Origin: Actinomycetospora lutea | Lineage (GTDB): Bacteria > Actinomycetota > Actinomycetes > Mycobacteriales > Pseudonocardiaceae | Assembly (NCBI RefSeq): GCF_028737205.1 | Contig: NZ_JAQZAL010000019.1 | Span: 1 to 64,000, forward strand | Length of the DNA stretch: 64,000 nt | Direction of reading: 5' to 3' | Shown here: positions 6,271 to 12,830 of the stretch, one piece after another | Numbering within the stretch: the first letter of the stretch is position 1 | How the letters are laid out: every line of letters begins with the position of its first letter | The notes under the pieces: model-generated | Seen by the model: only the letters and a program-made list of their open reading frames with translations | What the model was told of the DNA's origin: nothing | Database searches by the model: none | Made by a program: the position numbers and the translations under genes

Positions 6271-6753
6271 TCAGATGAGTGCGAGCTCGTAGGACTGCCC
6301 GCGCTGCTCGCTACCGAACTCGGTGTGGGTCTCCTCGCCGGCGAGGACGAAGCCGGCCTCCAGGTAGAGTTGCCGGGCGGCGGCGAGCGGCTCGTTGGTC
6401 CACAGCACGAGACGCGCGTGGCCCGCGTCGCGGGCGAACGCGATGCACCGCGCGACGAGCGAGCGTCCGACGCCGTGACCGCGCGCGGCCGGGTCGACGA
6501 GCAGGAGGCGCAGGCGCGCGGTCCGCTCGTCCTCGTGCACGCAGAGCACGCTGCCGACGCGCGCGCCGTCGAGCTCGGCGATCCACCCCGCGTCGCGTCC
6601 GGGCCGGGCGTGCGCGGCGTGGTCGGCCACGATCCGCGCGGTCACGGCCTCGACGGCCCAGTCGTACTCGGCCGCGTACAGCTCCCCGTGGGCCATGAGG
6701 ACCCAGCCCAGGTCTCCCGGGCGGCCCAGCTCCCTGATCGTCACCTCACCCAT
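6271..6753 (-). CDS. GNAT family N-acetyltransferase
   Basis: The protein transfers an acetyl group from acetyl-CoA to an unknown amine. It has 160 residues. The acetyl-CoA pyrophosphate loop GHGVGRSLVARCIAFA lies near 97-112, preceded by the beta-4 strand LRLLLVDPAARG, and YLEAGFVLAGEE is the usual C-terminal signature. It resembles the acetyltransferase half of MarR-GNAT fusion proteins. ATG 6753 is preferred over GTG 6756 because AGGAGG at 6759-6764 is then 5 nt away. It is divergent from a TetR gene and shares a 24-bp palindrome with it, so it is probably that regulator's target. Confidence 0.88.
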   Translation of the reverse strand: MGEVTIRELGRPGDLGWVLMAHGELYAAEYDWAVEAVTARIVADHAAHARPGRDAGWIAELDGARVGSVLCVHEDERTARLRLLLVDPAARGHGVGRSLVARCIAFARDAGHARLVLWTNEPLAAARQLYLEAGFVLAGEETHTEFGSEQRGQSYELALI

Positions 6754-6763
6754 CACGACCTCC

Positions 6764-6787
6764 TCACTGAAACGACTGTTTCAGTGA
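6764..6787. promoter_or_regulatory. 24-bp palindromic operator between the GNAT and TetR genes
   Basis: TCACTGAAAC-GACT-GTTTCAGTGA is a perfect inverted repeat with 10-bp arms and a 4-bp centre. It overlaps the ribosome-binding site of the GNAT gene on one side and ends 14 nt before the TetR start on the other. This is the classic place and shape for autoregulated TetR control. Confidence 0.85.
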
Positions 6788-6801
6788 AGCACACTGAGCG
6801 G

Positions 6802-7356
6802 GTGTCCGAGGGTTCCGCGCGGCAGCAGGAGCTGCTCGAAGCCGCGTACGCGTGGGTGCTCGACCGCGGCTGGGCGGGGATGTCGCTGCGCCCGCTGGCC
6901 GAGGCGATCGGGTCGAGCCCGCGCGTGCTGCTGTTCCTCTTCGGCAGCAAGGACGGGCTGGTGCGCGCGCTGCTGGCGCGCTCGCGCGCCGACCAGCTCG
7001 CGGTCGTCGACGCCGTCGGGCAGGGCGGGGACCTCGCCGCGGTGGGCGGGCGCGTCTGGGCGTGGCTGGCGGCGCCCGAGCACCGCGCCCTGCTGCGGCT
7101 GTGGCTCGAGGGCTACACCCGCTCCGTCGCCGACCCCGGCGACGGGCCGTGGGCCGGGTTCGCGGCGCGCACCGTCGCCGACTGGGACGCCCTGCTCGCC
7201 GACCACCAGCCCGCGCCCTACCGCGACACCCCGGCGGGGGCGGCCGAACGCACCCTGCTGCTGGCGGTCCTACGCGGGGCGCTGCTCGACCTCCTCGCCA
7301 CCGGCGACACCGCCCGCCTCGACGCCGCCGTTGCTGCGCACCTCGCGAGGTTGTGA
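6802..7356 (+). CDS. TetR family transcriptional regulator
   Basis: This is a ligand-responsive DNA-binding repressor of about 184 residues. The N-terminal helix-turn-helix spans about residues 8-52 (LLEAAYAWVLDRGWAGMSLR, then LAEAIGSSPRVLLFLFGSKD). The C-terminal helical domain would bind the ligand and form the dimer. GTG 6802 is chosen because an earlier in-frame GTG at 6784 lies inside the 24-bp palindrome. The divergent GNAT gene is the likely target, together with itself. A palindromic repeat follows the stop. Confidence 0.88.
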   Translation: MSEGSARQQELLEAAYAWVLDRGWAGMSLRPLAEAIGSSPRVLLFLFGSKDGLVRALLARSRADQLAVVDAVGQGGDLAAVGGRVWAWLAAPEHRALLRLWLEGYTRSVADPGDGPWAGFAARTVADWDALLADHQPAPYRDTPAGAAERTLLLAVLRGALLDLLATGDTARLDAAVAAHLARL

Positions 7357-7358
7357 CC

Positions 7359-7428
7359 GGTACGAGCGATGCGGCATCGCTGGCGTGTGACGCCAGGATC
7401 GCCACATCCTCGACGACGCGACACGCCG
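7359..7428 (-). repeat. Three-hairpin palindromic repeat, copy A
   Basis: Read on the minus strand, this is a copy of the same element found at 8742-8812 and 10872-10941. It contains three adjacent inverted repeats: GGAT-N6-ATCC, CTGGCGT-CAC-ACGCCAG and GCGATG-CCG-CATCGC. It lies between the convergent TetR and MFS genes. It shares a run of about 35 identical bases with copy C. Confidence 0.85.
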
Positions 7429-7476
7429 TGTCCCGGCGTGGCGACCACGCCGACGTCCACCGTCAGGCCTGCACGA

Positions 7477-8721
7477 TCACACGGCCAGGCCCACCAGCGC
7501 CGCGAGCACCGTCCCCACCCCGAGCACGAGGAACGCCGCCGGGAACCCGCCCGCGAGTCCCGCGACGGCGACGCCCCCGGCCGGCGCGAGGGCGACCGCG
7601 AGGGTCACGGGCGCGGAGAAGACACCGTTGACCCGGCCGAACGCGCGGGTGCCCCAGCGGTCGGAGACGGTCGAGGCCTGCAGGAGCGTGTGCAGCCCAC
7701 GCCCCGCGCCCGCGACGACCGCGAGCGCGATGAGCAGCACCGCCGGGCCGGGCACGAGCGCCAGCGCGATGACCCCTGCGCTGCCGAGCAGCAGGACCCC
7801 CGCGAGCCGGGTGCGCGGCGTCGACCGTCGCACCAGGGGCACGAACAGCAGCCGCCCCGCCACCTGCCCGACGCCCGTGAGCCCGAGCGCCAGCGCGGCG
7901 AGCCCGAGGTCCAGCCCGCGGCCCTCGAGCAGCGGGACGAGGTTGATCGTCGTCGCGTAGAGCCCGAACGCGCTGAGCGCCATGACCGCGGTGACGAGCA
8001 CGAAGCGCGGGCTGCGCAGCACCTCGGACGCGTGCTCGCGGTCCACGGTCTCGCGGTCGGTGGCCTCGCGCGGGCGCCACGGCGGGGTGAGGACGAGCGC
8101 GTGCAGCGGCACGGTCACGACGGCCAGGACGACGGCCAGCACCACGAACGTGCCCCGCCAGCCCAGCGGCCCGAGCAGCGCGGCGGTGAGCGGCGCGAAC
8201 ACCGTGCTCGCGAACCCGCCGACGAGTGTGAGCGTCGTCAGCGCCCGCACCCGCTGCTCGCCGTACCAGCCGGTCAGGGCCGCGAATGCCGGCGGGTAGA
8301 GCGTCGCGGACTGCCCGACACCGGCCACCGCCCAGGCCGCGTAGAACAGCGGCAGCGTCGGGGCCGTCGCGATCGCGAGGACGCCGAGGACGCCGACGAC
8401 CGACCCCGCGGTCATGACCAACCGGGGTCCGCGGCGGTCGATGAGCCGCCCGACGACGATGCCGGCGCCGGCCGAGACGAGGGCGCCGACGGAGAACGCG
8501 CCGGTCGCCGCGCCGACCGACCAGCCGGTGTCGGCGCTGATCGACGTCACGAGCACCGGGAACGCGTAGTACAGGACGCCCCAGCTCACGATCTCGGTCA
8601 CGCACAGCGCGGCGAGGGCGCGGCTCCGGGCCTCCACGCCGCCCACCCTGGACCCCGCGCGGACCGTCCGCTCGGTGATCGTGGGGGCTTCGCTGACGGT
8701 GATCGTCAGCGTGGCCGCCAC
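7477..8721 (-). CDS. MFS transporter
   Basis: This is a twelve-helix major facilitator permease of 414 residues with unknown substrate. The MFS motif A appears in the loop after helix 2 as GRLIDRRGPRL near residue 85, and GVGQSATLYPPAFAALTGWY near 130 resembles the monocarboxylate/OFA-like branches. The GTG at 8721 is chosen for length and because the frame farther upstream runs into the palindromic repeat. It is divergent from cofG. The intergenic space holds repeat copy B. Confidence 0.85.
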   Translation of the reverse strand: MAATLTITVSEAPTITERTVRAGSRVGGVEARSRALAALCVTEIVSWGVLYYAFPVLVTSISADTGWSVGAATGAFSVGALVSAGAGIVVGRLIDRRGPRLVMTAGSVVGVLGVLAIATAPTLPLFYAAWAVAGVGQSATLYPPAFAALTGWYGEQRVRALTTLTLVGGFASTVFAPLTAALLGPLGWRGTFVVLAVVLAVVTVPLHALVLTPPWRPREATDRETVDREHASEVLRSPRFVLVTAVMALSAFGLYATTINLVPLLEGRGLDLGLAALALGLTGVGQVAGRLLFVPLVRRSTPRTRLAGVLLLGSAGVIALALVPGPAVLLIALAVVAGAGRGLHTLLQASTVSDRWGTRAFGRVNGVFSAPVTLAVALAPAGGVAVAGLAGGFPAAFLVLGVGTVLAALVGLAV

Positions 8722-8741
8722 GCTGAGACACCCCCGTGGCC

Positions 8742-8812
8742 CGGCGTGTCGCGTCACCCAGGATGTGGCGATCCTGGCGTCAGGCGCCAGCGATGCCGCA
8801 TCGCTCGCACGG
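8742..8812 (+). repeat. Three-hairpin palindromic repeat, copy B
   Basis: This 71-bp copy fills most of the gap between the divergent MFS and cofG genes. All three hairpins are intact: GGAT..ATCC at 8761-8774, CTGGCG..CGCCAG at 8774-8790, and GCGATG..CATCGC at 8790-8804. Relative to copies A and C, the middle hairpin has a changed loop (TCAGG) but still pairs. Its right end is 4 nt from the -10 hexamer of cofG. Confidence 0.88.
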
Positions 8813-8816
8813 CGCG

Positions 8817-8822
8817 TAGGTT
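8817..8822 (+). promoter_or_regulatory. -10 element of a leaderless cofG transcript
   Basis: TAGGTT fits the actinobacterial TANNNT -10 pattern and ends 7 nt before the GTG start, so transcription would begin at the start codon. The place of the -35 box falls inside repeat copy B. Confidence 0.6.
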
Positions 8823-8829
8823 CGGGTCC

Positions 8830-10155
8830 GTGGCCGATCTCCCCGCTCCGGTGTCGCTCCCGCGGCCGTTGGCCGAGCTCCCGGAGCCGGCGGAGCCGTC
8901 GCGTACCGAGGTGCGTGTCGCGCTCGGACGGGCCGCGGACGGCGCGCTCGCCGACGATCCGGAGCACCCCGCCACGCTCGCCGATGCGACGACGCTGCTC
9001 GCCGCGCGGGGCGAGGAGCTCGACGCCCTGCTCGCGCTCGCCGCCGCGCGCCGCGACGAGCACCTCGCCGGCGAGGGCCGTTCGGGCGTCGTCACCTACA
9101 GCCCCAAGGTCTTCGTCCCGCTGACCCGCCTGTGCCGCGACCGCTGCCACTACTGCACGTTCGCCACCGTGCCCGGGCGGCTGCCCGCGGCGTACCTCGA
9201 GCGCGACGAGGTCCTCGAGATCGCCCGCGCCGGCGCCGAGCAGGGCTGCACCGAGGTGCTGTTCACCTTGGGCGATCGCCCCGAGGAGCGCTGGACTGCG
9301 GCCCGCGACTGGCTGGGCGCGCGCGACCTGGGCTCCACCCTCGAGCACGTCGAGCAGTCGGCCCGGGCTGTCCTCACCGAGACCGGCCTCCTGCCCCACC
9401 TCAACCCCGGCGTCATGGACCTCGTCGAACTCCAGCGCCTGCGCGGCGTGTCGCCGTCGATGGGGATGATGCTCGAGACCACTGCGACGCGGCTGTGGTC
9501 GCGGCCGGGCGGCGCGCACTTCGGCTCGCCGGACAAGGAGCCCGCGCTGCGCCGCCGGGTGGTCGACGACGCGGGACGCGCGCGCGTGCCGTTCACCAGC
9601 GGGATTCTCGTCGGCATCGGCGAGCACCGCGCCGAGCGGGCGCAGTCGCTGCTCGTGCTCGCCGAGTCGGCACGCCGCGGCGGGCATCTGCAGGAACTGA
9701 TCGTCCAGAACTTCCGCGCCAAGCCCGACACGGCGATGCGCGGGGAGCCCGACGCCGAGTTCGACGCGTTAGTCGCCGCTGTGGCCGTCGCGCGCCTGAT
9801 CATGCCACTCGGTGTCAGTGTCCAGGCGCCGCCGAACCTCGCCGGCGAGCTGGACGACTCGCAGAGCGCCGCCGACGACCAGGCCCTGCTGCTGCGCGCC
9901 GGCATCGACGACTGGGGCGGCGTCTCGCCGGTGACCCCCGACCACGTCAACCCCGAGCGCCCGTGGCCCGGCCTCGACGCGCTGCGGGCGGTCACCGCCA
10001 CCGCCGGGTTCACCCTCAGCCCGAGGTTGACGATCTACCCGCGCTACGTGCGCGATCCTGACCGGTGGCTGCACCCCGCCCTCGTCGACCCGCTCATCGC
10101 CCTGGCCGACGAGCAGGGGCTGGCCCGGGTGCGCCAGCCGGCAGGGACGCGGTGA
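8830..10155 (+). CDS. cofG: 7,8-didemethyl-8-hydroxy-5-deazariboflavin synthase subunit CofG
   Basis: CofG is a radical-SAM enzyme that, with CofH, builds the deazaflavin (F0) part of coenzyme F420. The 441-residue protein has the cluster motif CRDRCHYC (CxxxCxxC) near residue 102, GCTEVLFTLGDRPEERW near 140 and HLNPGVMDLVELQRL near 195, and ends with the CofG-type YPRYVRDPDRWLHPAL block. In actinobacteria, CofG and CofH are normally fused as FbiC. Here the CofG part ends on its own TGA and the cofH-like gene starts in a GTGA overlap. Whether a fused FbiC exists elsewhere in the genome is unknown. Confidence 0.88.
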   Translation: MADLPAPVSLPRPLAELPEPAEPSRTEVRVALGRAADGALADDPEHPATLADATTLLAARGEELDALLALAAARRDEHLAGEGRSGVVTYSPKVFVPLTRLCRDRCHYCTFATVPGRLPAAYLERDEVLEIARAGAEQGCTEVLFTLGDRPEERWTAARDWLGARDLGSTLEHVEQSARAVLTETGLLPHLNPGVMDLVELQRLRGVSPSMGMMLETTATRLWSRPGGAHFGSPDKEPALRRRVVDDAGRARVPFTSGILVGIGEHRAERAQSLLVLAESARRGGHLQELIVQNFRAKPDTAMRGEPDAEFDALVAAVAVARLIMPLGVSVQAPPNLAGELDDSQSAADDQALLLRAGIDDWGGVSPVTPDHVNPERPWPGLDALRAVTATAGFTLSPRLTIYPRYVRDPDRWLHPALVDPLIALADEQGLARVRQPAGTR

Positions 10156-11270
10156 GCGCCGGCGCCCTCCTCGCCCGCGCCGAGGCCGACCCCGCAGGCC
10201 TGCCCGACGAGGCCTACGTCGAGCTGCTCGCGGCCGACGGCGCGGAGCTCGACGCGCTGGCCGCGCTGGCCGACGACCTGCGCCGCGACGCCGTCGGCGA
10301 CCAGCTGACCTTCGTCGCCAACCGCAACCTCGACACCGCCGTCGTGCGCGACCCCGGCCACGCGCGGGCCCTCGTCGACGAGGCGTGGGCGCTCGGGGCG
10401 ACGGAGATCTGCGTGCAGGGCCCGCTGCCCGACGACGCCGGTGACCGCGCGCGGCTCGACCTCGTCGCGCTGATCACCGGCCGGGTGCCGATGCACCTCC
10501 ACGCGTTCCGGCCCGCGGAGGTCGCCGACGCCGCCGCGCGGCTGGGGCTCTCCCCGCGCGAGTTCCTCGTCGCCGCCCGCGACGCCGGGCTCGGGTCGGT
10601 GCCGGGCACGGCGGCGCGCATCCTCGACGACGGCATCCGCGCGCTGCTCACCGGCGGCACCGACATCCCCGCCGCCCGGTGGACCGAGCTCGTCACCACC
10701 GCGCACGAGGTCGGCCTGCGCTCGACGGCGACGATGGTCTACGGACACGTGGAGACGCGCGCCGAGCAGGTCGCGCACCTGCGCGCGCTCGCCGCGATCC
10801 AGGACCGGACCGGCGGGTTCACCGAGTTCATCGCCATGCCGATCCTGCCCGAGGCGCTGCCGCCCGAACTGCGGCGTGTCGCGGATCGAGGATGTGGCGA
10901 TCCTGGCGTCACACGCCAGCAACGCCGCATCGCTCGCACGGGGACCGTGCCCGACGTGCGGGAGACGCGAGCGCTCCACGCCGTCGCGCGGCTGATGCTG
11001 TACGGGCGGATCGACCACGTGCAGGCGGCGTGGCCCAAGCTCGGGCCGGAGCTCACGACCGCGGTGCTGCGCGGGGGTGCCGACGACGCCGGCGGCCTGC
11101 TCCTCGACGGCGCGCTCGACCCGGCCGCCGGGGCGGAGGCGGGCCGGCAGCTCACGCTCGCGCAGGTCGAGGCCCTCGCCGCCGAGCTCGGGCGCACGCC
11201 GCGCCAGCGCACCACCGTCTACGGCGACCCCACCCCCGAGCGGCAGGCGGCCCTGCGCGCGGCGCCCTGA
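10152..11270 (+). CDS. CofH-like protein lacking the radical-SAM cysteines
   Basis: This 372-residue protein aligns with the CofH half of FbiC: GATEICVQGPL, MHLHAFRPAEV, REFLVAARDAGLGSVPGTAA, RSTATMVYGHVET, RTGGFTEF and a C-terminal RTTVYG. The segment between VANRN and DEAW that should hold the CxxxCxxC cluster motif is shortened and has no cysteine, so radical-SAM chemistry by this subunit is unlikely. Residues of about 241-263 come from an in-frame copy of the palindromic repeat, where the family normally has the segment before RENRAVHAVARL. It starts in a GTGA overlap with cofG. It may be a decaying paralogue or have a changed role, possibly partner binding. Confidence 0.75.
   Translation: MSAGALLARAEADPAGLPDEAYVELLAADGAELDALAALADDLRRDAVGDQLTFVANRNLDTAVVRDPGHARALVDEAWALGATEICVQGPLPDDAGDRARLDLVALITGRVPMHLHAFRPAEVADAAARLGLSPREFLVAARDAGLGSVPGTAARILDDGIRALLTGGTDIPAARWTELVTTAHEVGLRSTATMVYGHVETRAEQVAHLRALAAIQDRTGGFTEFIAMPILPEALPPELRRVADRGCGDPGVTRQQRRIARTGTVPDVRETRALHAVARLMLYGRIDHVQAAWPKLGPELTTAVLRGGADDAGGLLLDGALDPAAGAEAGRQLTLAQVEALAAELGRTPRQRTTVYGDPTPERQAALRAAP
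10872..10941 (+). repeat. Three-hairpin palindromic repeat, copy C, in frame inside the cofH-like gene
   Basis: This 70-bp copy is embedded in coding sequence. It is translated as about 23 residues including DRGCGDPGVTRQQRRIARTG without breaking the frame. Hairpins one and two are perfect. The third has two changed bases (GCAACG instead of GCGATG). Flanking protein sequence on both sides matches CofH. Confidence 0.88.
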
Positions 11271-11298
11271 GACGTGGCACCGGGCCGGAGCCCCGGCG

Positions 11299-11304
11299 TA
11301 GGTT
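11299..11304 (+). promoter_or_regulatory. -10 element before a leaderless mini-ORF
   Basis: TAGGTT lies 6 nt before GTG 11311. The stretch GCGTAGGTTCGGGTC is nearly the same as the cofG promoter at 8814, which supports both as real promoters. Confidence 0.55.
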
Positions 11305-11310
11305 CGGGTC

Positions 11311-11349
11311 GTGGCTGATCACGGCGCGGGGTCCCCGGGATCACCGTGA
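11311..11349 (+). CDS. Leaderless 12-codon upstream ORF
   Basis: The GTG six bases after a -10 hexamer opens a reading frame of 12 codons (VADHGAGSPGSP) whose TGA overlaps the GTG start of the flavin monooxygenase (GTGA at 11346). The arrangement suggests a leader peptide whose translation is coupled to the downstream gene. This is inferred from position only. Confidence 0.4.
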   Translation: MADHGAGSPGSP

Positions 11350-12830
11350 GCGCACCCGCCGACGTCGACGTCGCCGTGGTCGGGGCCGGGTTCGCCGGCA
11401 TCGGCCTGGGCGTGCGGCTGGCCCGCCGCCGGCGCGAGTCGTTCGTGCTGCTCGAGCGCGCCCACGGGGTGGGCGGGACGTGGCGCGACAACCGCTATCC
11501 CGGGGTCGCCTGCGACGTGCCCTCGCACCTGTACTCGTTCTCGTTCCGCCCCAAGCCCGACTGGTCGCGGGTGTTCGCGCCGGGTGCGGAGATCCACGAC
11601 TACCTGCGCGAGTCCGCCCGCGACGAGGGCCTCGACCCCCACCTGCGCCTCGGCACCGAGATGCAGCGCGCCCGCTGGGACGGCACGCGATGGCGGATCG
11701 CGACGTCGTCGGGCACCTACCGCGCGCGGGTGCTCGTCGTGGCCGCCGGGCGCCTGTCCGAGCCGCGCATCCCCGAGATCCCCGGACTGTCGGACTTCGA
11801 CGGCCCCGTCTTCCACTCCGCGCGCTGGGACGGCGCCGCCGCGCTGGCCGGGAAACGGGTCGGTGTCGTCGGCACCGGCGCCTCGGCCGCCCAGATCGTG
11901 CCCGCGCTGGCCGGCGCCGCGTCCCACCTCGTCGTCTTCCAGCGCACCCCGCCGTGGGTCGTGCCGCGCGGCGACCGCGCCTACACCGAGCAGGAGCGCC
12001 GCACCTTCGCCCTCGACCCCGCCGCCGAGCGGGCCCTGCGCGAGGAGCTCTTCGAGGAGGCCGAGGGCGCCATCGGGGCGCGGCGCCGGGTCCGCCCCGA
12101 CATCGACCGGCTGCGCGACCGCGCGCTCGCCCACCTCACCGCCCAGGTGCCCGACGCCCGCCTGCGGGCCCGCCTGACCCCGGACTACGAGATCGGCTGC
12201 AAGCGCATCGTCATCTCCGACGACCTCTACCCCGCGCTCGGCCGCGACGACGTCACCCTCGAGCCCAGCGCGCTGCACCGCGTCGAGAAGACGACCGCCG
12301 TCGCCGCCTCGGGCGCGCACCACCCGCTCGACGCCCTCGTGTTCGGCACCGGGTTCTGGACCACGCGGCTGCCGTTCGCGCAGCGCATCGAGGGCCGGCA
12401 CGGGCTGCTCGCCGACCGCTGGGCCGACGGGATGACCGCGCACGCCTCGACCGCCGTGCACGGCTTCCCCAACATGTTCGTGCTCAACGGGCCCAACGCG
12501 AGCCTCGGCCACAACTCCGCGGTGTACATGATCGAGGCGCAGATCGACCACGTGCTGGGCGCGCTGGACCACCTCGCCGGGACCGGGGGCGCGCCCCTCG
12601 AGGTCACCGCGGAGGCCGAGGAGGCCTACACCCGCGAGATCGACGCGATGAGCGCGGACACCGTCTGGCTGCAGGGCGGGTGCCGCAGCTGGTACGTCGA
12701 CGAGACCAGCGGGCGCCTGACGCTGCTCTGGCCGGGGACGGCCCGCTCGTTCCGGGCGCGCAACGGGACGTTCGACCCCCGGCCCTACGGCCAGTCGCCG
12801 GTGCCCGCTCGGTCGCGCGGCGGCGCGTGA
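11346..12830 (+). CDS. Flavin-containing monooxygenase, Baeyer-Villiger type
   Basis: This FAD/NADPH enzyme inserts oxygen into ketones or oxidises heteroatoms, with unknown substrate. It has 494 residues. The FAD Rossmann motif VVGAGFAGIGLG is at about 12-23, GVGGTWRDNRYPG near 47, the Baeyer-Villiger fingerprint FDGPVFHSARW (FxGxxxHxxxW) near 150 and the NADPH motif GVVGTGASAAQIV near 172. ATGFW-like GTGFWTTRLPF lies near 337. The GTG at 11346 overlaps the stop of a leaderless mini-ORF. It is not obviously linked to the cofG/cofH-like pair upstream. Confidence 0.88.
   Translation: MSAPADVDVAVVGAGFAGIGLGVRLARRRRESFVLLERAHGVGGTWRDNRYPGVACDVPSHLYSFSFRPKPDWSRVFAPGAEIHDYLRESARDEGLDPHLRLGTEMQRARWDGTRWRIATSSGTYRARVLVVAAGRLSEPRIPEIPGLSDFDGPVFHSARWDGAAALAGKRVGVVGTGASAAQIVPALAGAASHLVVFQRTPPWVVPRGDRAYTEQERRTFALDPAAERALREELFEEAEGAIGARRRVRPDIDRLRDRALAHLTAQVPDARLRARLTPDYEIGCKRIVISDDLYPALGRDDVTLEPSALHRVEKTTAVAASGAHHPLDALVFGTGFWTTRLPFAQRIEGRHGLLADRWADGMTAHASTAVHGFPNMFVLNGPNASLGHNSAVYMIEAQIDHVLGALDHLAGTGGAPLEVTAEAEEAYTREIDAMSADTVWLQGGCRSWYVDETSGRLTLLWPGTARSFRARNGTFDPRPYGQSPVPARSRGGA

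Follow-up and report, generated by a model that had tools for sequence, protein, structure and literature searches.

Three palindromic copies at the cofG–cofH locus

The window, a 64,000-nucleotide stretch of the Actinomycetospora lutea draft genome (assembly GCF_028737205.1, contig NZ_JAQZAL010000019.1, positions 1 to 64,000), contains three copies of a palindromic element of about 70 bp, termed R1 here. The main feature of the R1 family, unforeseen by the preliminary description of this DNA, is that different species carry their own specific versions of the element at shared sites. The three copies reported in that description are all present, and they do occupy three kinds of site, i.e., a gap between convergent genes (copy A), a gap between divergent genes (copy B), and the interior of a protein gene (copy C). 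A second element, fam2, lies directly 5' of copies A and B. The features of the locus are as follows:

7358..7433, minus strand: copy A of R1 (core 7360-7412), between the convergent TetR and MFS genes
8737..8812, plus strand: copy B of R1 (5' block 8742-8752, core 8758-8810), between the divergent MFS and cofG genes
10867..10941, plus strand: copy C of R1 (core 10887-10939), in frame within the cofH-like gene
7428..7478, minus strand: fam2 element on the strand of copy A and immediately 5' of it (R2 model, 55.2 bits)
8677..8731, plus strand: fam2 element on the strand of copy B and immediately 5' of it (R2 model, 66.2 bits)
6784..7356, plus strand: TetR-family gene, with copy A just past its stop codon
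7477..8721, minus strand: MFS transporter gene, separating copies A and B
8869..10155, plus strand: cofG (FO synthase subunit), start codon uncertain
10152..11270, plus strand: cofH-like gene, containing copy C

The fam2 element at 8677..8731 reaches into the start region of the MFS gene, and the translation of copy C within the cofH-like gene contains ...RGCGDPGVTRQQRRIART.... The 20-nt sequence GGATGTGGCGATCCTGGCGT occurs three times in the window, against 0.01 occurrences expected from shuffling. No Rfam match up to an expect value (E) of 1 was found in window positions 6500-11700, and the element there corresponds to no known curated RNA family. At the orthologous place of copy B in the sister genome G011 (L108), a degraded 3' half of the element stands alone; copies therefore also decay.

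Copy number, anatomy and gene context of R1

The genome-wide search proposed in the preliminary description revealed a dispersed family. A covariance model built from 31 copies finds at least 68 R1 copies on 29 contigs of the 6.53-Mb draft genome, each with E of 2.7e-7 or better. This count is a lower bound, because 150 of 14,222 first-look candidates were scored; with the limit set at an E of 1, the model gives 112 matches, and the 44 weaker ones all fall on the 68 strong sites. In addition, GGATGTGGCGATCCTGGCGT has 44 exact matches genome-wide, versus 0 for the reversed pattern. The outcome in which only the three copies exist through local duplication is thereby excluded, and local duplication or chance palindromes, to which the crowding of three copies into 3.6 kb would otherwise point, retain a negligible probability.

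In the 67-copy profile, the R1 unit comprises an 11-nt 5' block, CGGCGTGTCGC, a free spacer of 4-5 nt (47 copies have 5 nt, 20 have 4 nt), and a palindromic core of 53 nt, CGAGGATGTGGCGATCCTGGCGT-NNN-ACGCCAGCGATGCCGCATCGCTCGNAC, amounting to about 70 bp. The ends are sharp: column frequencies are 0.94-1.00 in the 5' block and at most 0.57 in the 15 positions outside it, and conservation is at most 0.54 beyond the end of the core. The same profile shows no GTAG tetranucleotide at either end (the ends being CGGCGTGTCGC and CTCG-N-AC), no CGTC-type end tag (CGTC is internal only), no T-run as part of the element, and no terminal inverted repeats, the 5' block and the 3' end being unrelated in sequence.

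The core contains three mutually complementary segments and has two rival folds, one with hairpin 2 nested in a long stem and the other with hairpin 2 followed by hairpin 3. Among 13 representative cores, which are partly species consensus sequences, the nested fold scores somewhat better (90.5% of cells paired, covariation score 0.280) than the three-hairpin fold (85.6%, 0.229), and for both folds the covariation score lies above those of all 500 shuffles (alignment A7, of mixed strands, was left out of pair counts). Of the three hairpins originally proposed, the second (96% of cells paired) and the third (87%) stand, whereas the first, GGAT..ATCC (61.5%), was rejected as a conserved feature. 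Compensatory changes, suggested earlier as a check, appear across families and species but not within the 31 R1 copies, where two-sided changes were found in 0 of 25 predicted pairs; the covariation thus arises from the comparison of families and species. Copy B does have a changed loop, but this position is one of the most variable in the whole family.

Gene context was taken from a purpose-written codon-usage gene caller, by which 67 of the 68 copies were placed (copy C18:332736, outside the first placement, was added on recount): 58 are intergenic, seven lie inside open reading frames (ORFs), and two lie at ORF ends. Gaps between convergent genes account for 28 of the 58 intergenic copies, versus 11 of 76 background gaps (binomial ~1e-9), where the background counts gaps of 20 nt or more and is drawn from the window and from five A. 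lutea loci picked for containing elements. The 3' side of the element points towards the neighbouring stop codon in 43 of the 58 (median 11 nt, P 1.5e-4). Ten adjacent pairs lie within 2.1 kb, eight in '- +' order and none in '+ -' order; random placement gives a mean of 1.44 pairs (maximum 8 in 2000 runs) and 0.36 '- +' pairs (maximum 4). A preference for gene ends is the one explanation we can offer for this pair polarity. Native genes lie between the members of the pairs; in mftF both members are within a single gene, the middle of which is conserved in species without copies. A cargo transposon bounded by '- +' pairs was rejected, since the mftF pair encloses native coding sequence.

The R2 model gave 27 matches in the A. 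lutea loci searched, of which 11 lie off an R1 core and represent fam2; eight of these 11 immediately precede, on its 5' side, an R1 copy of the same strand. Genome counts from this model (e.g., 53 in A. lutea) include cross-matching R1 copies, and where a genome has R1 they therefore cannot serve as copy numbers of fam2. A further stretch resembling a palindrome, CTCCGGCGCGGCAGCTCCGC...GTGCCGC, is found six times in A. lutea loci (L007, L010, L012, L075, and L080) and in cofH of G008 (L118), in some cases apparently within a fam2 hairpin, an arrangement that suggests palindromes inserted into palindromes.

Shared sites, species-specific versions and in-frame copies

An exact 26-base pattern of the element matches 48 stretches in GTDB r220, all of them from Actinomycetospora (records of A. 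lutea may be left out of this number). The R1 model matches, at E up to 0.001, 10 of 17 other genomes of the genus and one of 43 other genomes; R1 is present in 10 of 10 inner-clade genomes (A. lutea included) and in one of eight outer-clade genomes (G015, a weak match). The reverse holds for fam4, a nearly perfect palindrome of 57 nt: it has matches in all eight outer-clade genomes and in none of the ten inner-clade genomes, with 72-84 matches in G001, G003, G014, and G016 (both strands counted, 40 candidates scored) and 3-19 in the other outer genomes. The superfamily model R3 matches all 16 genomes drawn from the genus and, elsewhere in the family, 10 of 233 genomes, six of these ten belonging to one other genus, g20. 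The g20 elements (L297-L320) are abundant perfect palindromes, such as CATGAAAGTGCCGTTCCTGGCGTTGAACGCCAGGAACGGCACTTTCATG, around the same apical hairpin, CCTGGCGTTGAACGCCAGG, as in Actinomycetospora; the two sets of elements might derive from a common element, and the matches in g20 are weak, the best having an E of 7.5e-7.

The sites are largely shared between relatives. Of 43 loci fetched from G011, 35 share an A. lutea R1 site, as defined by a flank match of at least 300 nt at 78% identity or more, and all 43 contain an R1-like stretch, although the independent places are fewer than 43 because L108/L247 and L121/L266 overlap. Since sites are largely held in common with this sister species, recent mobility is low. 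Outer-clade loci were compared by blastn, tblastx being too noisy. The search for target-site duplications turned up no closely related empty site whose flanks could be aligned, the outer-clade sites being too diverged.

At these shared sites the core consensus differs by species. Columns 34-37 read CGAT in 37 of 52 A. lutea cores, versus 0 of 32 in NBRC 106375 and 0 of 13 in A. cinnamomea. NBRC 106375 offers 14 orthologous R1 sites, two of which have malformed A. lutea cores; at the 12 sites with well-formed cores, the diagnostic columns differ in 12 of 12, with A. lutea having CGAT at 9, CGAC at 1, CAAC at 1, and CAAA at 1, and NBRC 106375 having GAAA at 9, CAAA at 2, and CAAC at 1. Seven of eight orthologous sites in A. 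cinnamomea likewise oppose the A. lutea type to (C/G)AAA, the eighth being a misassigned core. Orthologous copies resemble each other hardly more, if at all, than randomly paired copies do, and NBRC 106375 alone departs from this: the mean differences for orthologous versus shuffled pairs are 4.80 versus 4.72 in A. succinea (5 pairs) and 8.00 versus 7.72 in A. cinnamomea (8 pairs), five comparisons that were not R1-like on both sides having been dropped. Orthologous sites may also hold different families. In G011, cofH carries fam2 instead of R1; the G016 orthologue of the A. lutea site C8:139344 has fam4, and the G015 orthologue of C16:118717 has a fam4-like element.

Some of the sites lie within protein genes. 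The reading frame is kept by all seven ORF-interior copies of the A. lutea genome; the three sense copies share one frame (RGCGDPG...), and three of the four antisense copies share another (SDAxxLAxDARxATSS). In-frame copies occupy identical codon positions in as many as 10 species. The cofH insert occupies one place in 10 of 10 inner-clade genomes versus 0 of 7 outer-clade genomes examined (G013 left out). Constant occupation of orthologous sites, named beforehand as an outcome that would speak against mobility, is thus observed within the inner clade and breaks down in the outer one. The insert is of R1 type in G000, G012, and G006, and of fam2 type in G011, G005, G009, G002, G017, G008, and G004, the last two holding further sequence besides fam2. 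At mftF site 1, the insert is present in 9 of 9 inner genomes examined (90-174 nt between anchors) and absent from 7 of 7 outer genomes (33-36 nt). Depending on the species, mftF site 2 carries R1, fam2, a third type, or fam4 (the latter in G001 and G003), and is short in G013 (36 nt), G017 (39 nt), and G002 (54 nt). In a structural model of CofH (15 sequences, mean predicted local distance difference test score, pLDDT, of 78.5), the insert falls between a strand and a helix and is modelled there, with low confidence, as a loop, residues 242-254 and 260-265 falling below a pLDDT of 50. In cofG of G009 (C27:119635-119684; L097, L106, and L114), a two-piece match has a gap of ~48 nt with an open frame, and this gap looks like a further in-frame insert.

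Affinities and origin of the family

The family works like repetitive extragenic palindromic (REP) elements, fails the defining tests of REPs of the GTAG type with a REP-associated tyrosine transposase (RAYT), and bears no hallmark of a miniature inverted-repeat transposable element (MITE). The REP-like nature suggested in the preliminary description is borne out by dispersed palindromic copies that lie mainly outside genes, with a polarity towards the 3' ends of genes, and the high-copy extragenic palindrome near gene ends agrees with GTAG/RAYT REPs, whereas the GTAG end is absent, no Y1 transposase was found in the genus genomes searched, and the unit is ~70 bp rather than 20-40 bp. A search for Y1/RAYT transposases (PF01797) was positive in 0 of 18 genus genomes and 5 of 14 control genomes, although these are draft genomes and a very divergent enzyme could be missed; a RAYT-driven REP was rejected on these grounds. 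REPs, REPINs and bacterial interspersed mosaic elements (BIMEs) are likewise gene-end extragenic palindromes with long vertical persistence, several classes per genome, and class turnover (PMC3116915, PMC8049555, PMC3686654). Unlike those of REPs and REPINs, the close pairs in Actinomycetospora lie 0.5-1.5 kb apart around a gene and not ~100 bp apart. In the 'orthoswitch' model (PMC3686654), new REP variants spread while the originals stay and decay, whereas in Actinomycetospora the new version occupies the same sites. Literature searches for Actinomycetospora repeats and for actinobacterial palindromic or in-frame elements brought up no paper with a matching description in its title or opening abstract.

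The Rickettsia palindromic elements (RPEs; Ogata et al. 2000) resemble the present family in several features: they are short many-copy palindromes, some of them in frame in protein genes. They belong to a different phylum and probably differ in sequence; the Actinomycetospora elements lack a CGTC-type end tag and have clade-specific families at the same in-frame sites. A further likeness concerns the CGTC-tagged RPE-4 and RPE-6, since the available text of PMC3733652 knows no dedicated transposase for the CGTC class. The same text, in which the word 'actinobacteria' does not appear, defines CGTC-tagged REPs by CGTC (or TGTC/CCTC) at one end, an 8-9 bp stem, and a 4-5 nt loop, from which the Actinomycetospora element departs in having CGTC internally and no end tag; it treats the spread and likeness of palindromic repeats without RAYT (CGTC class, RPEs) as an open question. 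RepRanger (PMC12306157), in the part available, covers a few Actinomycetota and none of these genera.

We regard as moderately probable that the family is an old, site-locked set of REP/RPE-like palindromes whose copies are rewritten together and whose hairpins are tolerated or used at 3' ends. R1, fam2, and their lineage-specific relatives would constitute an old, vertically inherited superfamily that entered the genus in ancient times, mostly just past stop codons and between convergent genes, where the hairpins would be tolerated or serve as 3'-end structures, while a minority would have entered permissive protein loops in frame. The sites would then stay fixed and the copies within a genome would be kept alike and shift together, so that a given site would hold a different version in each species. 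As the agent, the most likely candidate would be a hairpin-recognising nuclease, or a template-switching or conversion process, that overwrites one element with another, and it would not be a Y1/RAYT transposase. Gene conversion was proposed early for REPs. We infer the homogenising or replacing process, as well as any 3'-end function.

Several observations weigh against joint rewriting at fixed sites. The orthologous copies of NBRC 106375 are somewhat closer than shuffled pairs (8.21 versus 9.38 differences, P 0.012; 14 pairs, including two malformed cores), and between G000 and G011 the values are 6.73 versus 7.17 (P 0.056, 22 pairs), or 4.95 versus 5.31 for well-formed pairs (P 0.10, 19 pairs); a slight orthology signal may therefore remain. 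Occupancy is biased upward because orthologous loci were mostly fetched for carrying elements. Neither conversion nor transposition was caught in the act, and the analysis brought up no responsible enzyme. For the G000/G011 pair alone, a burst from a single master shortly before the two diverged would produce the same picture, and the R1/fam2 exchange in the inner clade could reflect differential loss from a tandem, because eight of 11 fam2 matches lie directly 5' of R1.

The main rival, which we consider rather unlikely, is selection on a functional 3'-end element, in which the hairpins would be candidate bidirectional terminators or mRNA 3'-end stabilisers that co-evolve with an RNA- or DNA-binding factor, such co-evolution accounting for the joint change of all copies within a lineage. 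Sites 3' of stop codons and between convergent genes, together with the covariation in both candidate folds, are in its favour, but the in-frame copies of mftF and cofH cannot be terminators there, and the element includes no T-run. Strand asymmetry is divided on the matter: on the + strand, G.T is favoured over A.C substitutions 18:4 in hairpin 2 and 6:1 in the long stem, whereas hairpin 3 has the opposite bias, 0:10 (63 of 67 copies, four having been dropped). These counts are non-independent because variants are shared among copies, and the test is mixed and not taken as proof.

Shared occupancy could instead be convergence, if still-mobile families recurrently inserted into the same hot spots, i.e., post-stop positions and permissive loops. 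The differing families at the same mftF and cofH sites and the possible palindrome-in-palindrome arrangements in G008 and A. lutea loci fit such recurrence; nevertheless, it would demand extreme target specificity to account for the sites shared with G011, and the common codons of the in-frame copies across species likewise count against it, so that we hold it to be improbable. Still harder to sustain, and in our view very improbable, is the MITE-like origin entertained in the preliminary description, in which a conventional (DDE) transposase would move a non-autonomous element bounded by terminal inverted repeats. Size, copy number, sharp ends, and the excess of close '- +' pairs are as expected of a MITE, the likeness extending to tens of non-coding copies on the 70-bp scale (PMC10969869). 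However, the two ends are not inverted repeats of each other, no cognate transposase was found and no transposase gene was seen beside the close pairs inspected, the pairs flank native DNA, as in mftF, and the sites are largely held in common with the sister species.

Site-locked rewriting can be distinguished here from spread to new sites because clades carry alternative families at the same sites, and the genus offers such sites also inside two enzymes. It is conceivable, if doubtful, that a RAYT-independent process rewrites dispersed palindromes at fixed sites throughout the genome, and that MftF and CofH thereby carry interchangeable, clade-specific in-frame cassettes. If so, these cassettes would evolve with the repeats of the genome and not with their own gene, they would show palindromic repeats reshaping proteins in free-living actinobacteria, and they would constitute natural insertion-tolerance experiments.

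We note that the CofH-like protein lacks the region of the radical S-adenosylmethionine motif CxxxCxxC in 17 of 17 genus genomes examined, and may be a repurposed CofH; the neighbouring CofG of the A. lutea genome keeps CRDRCHYC.

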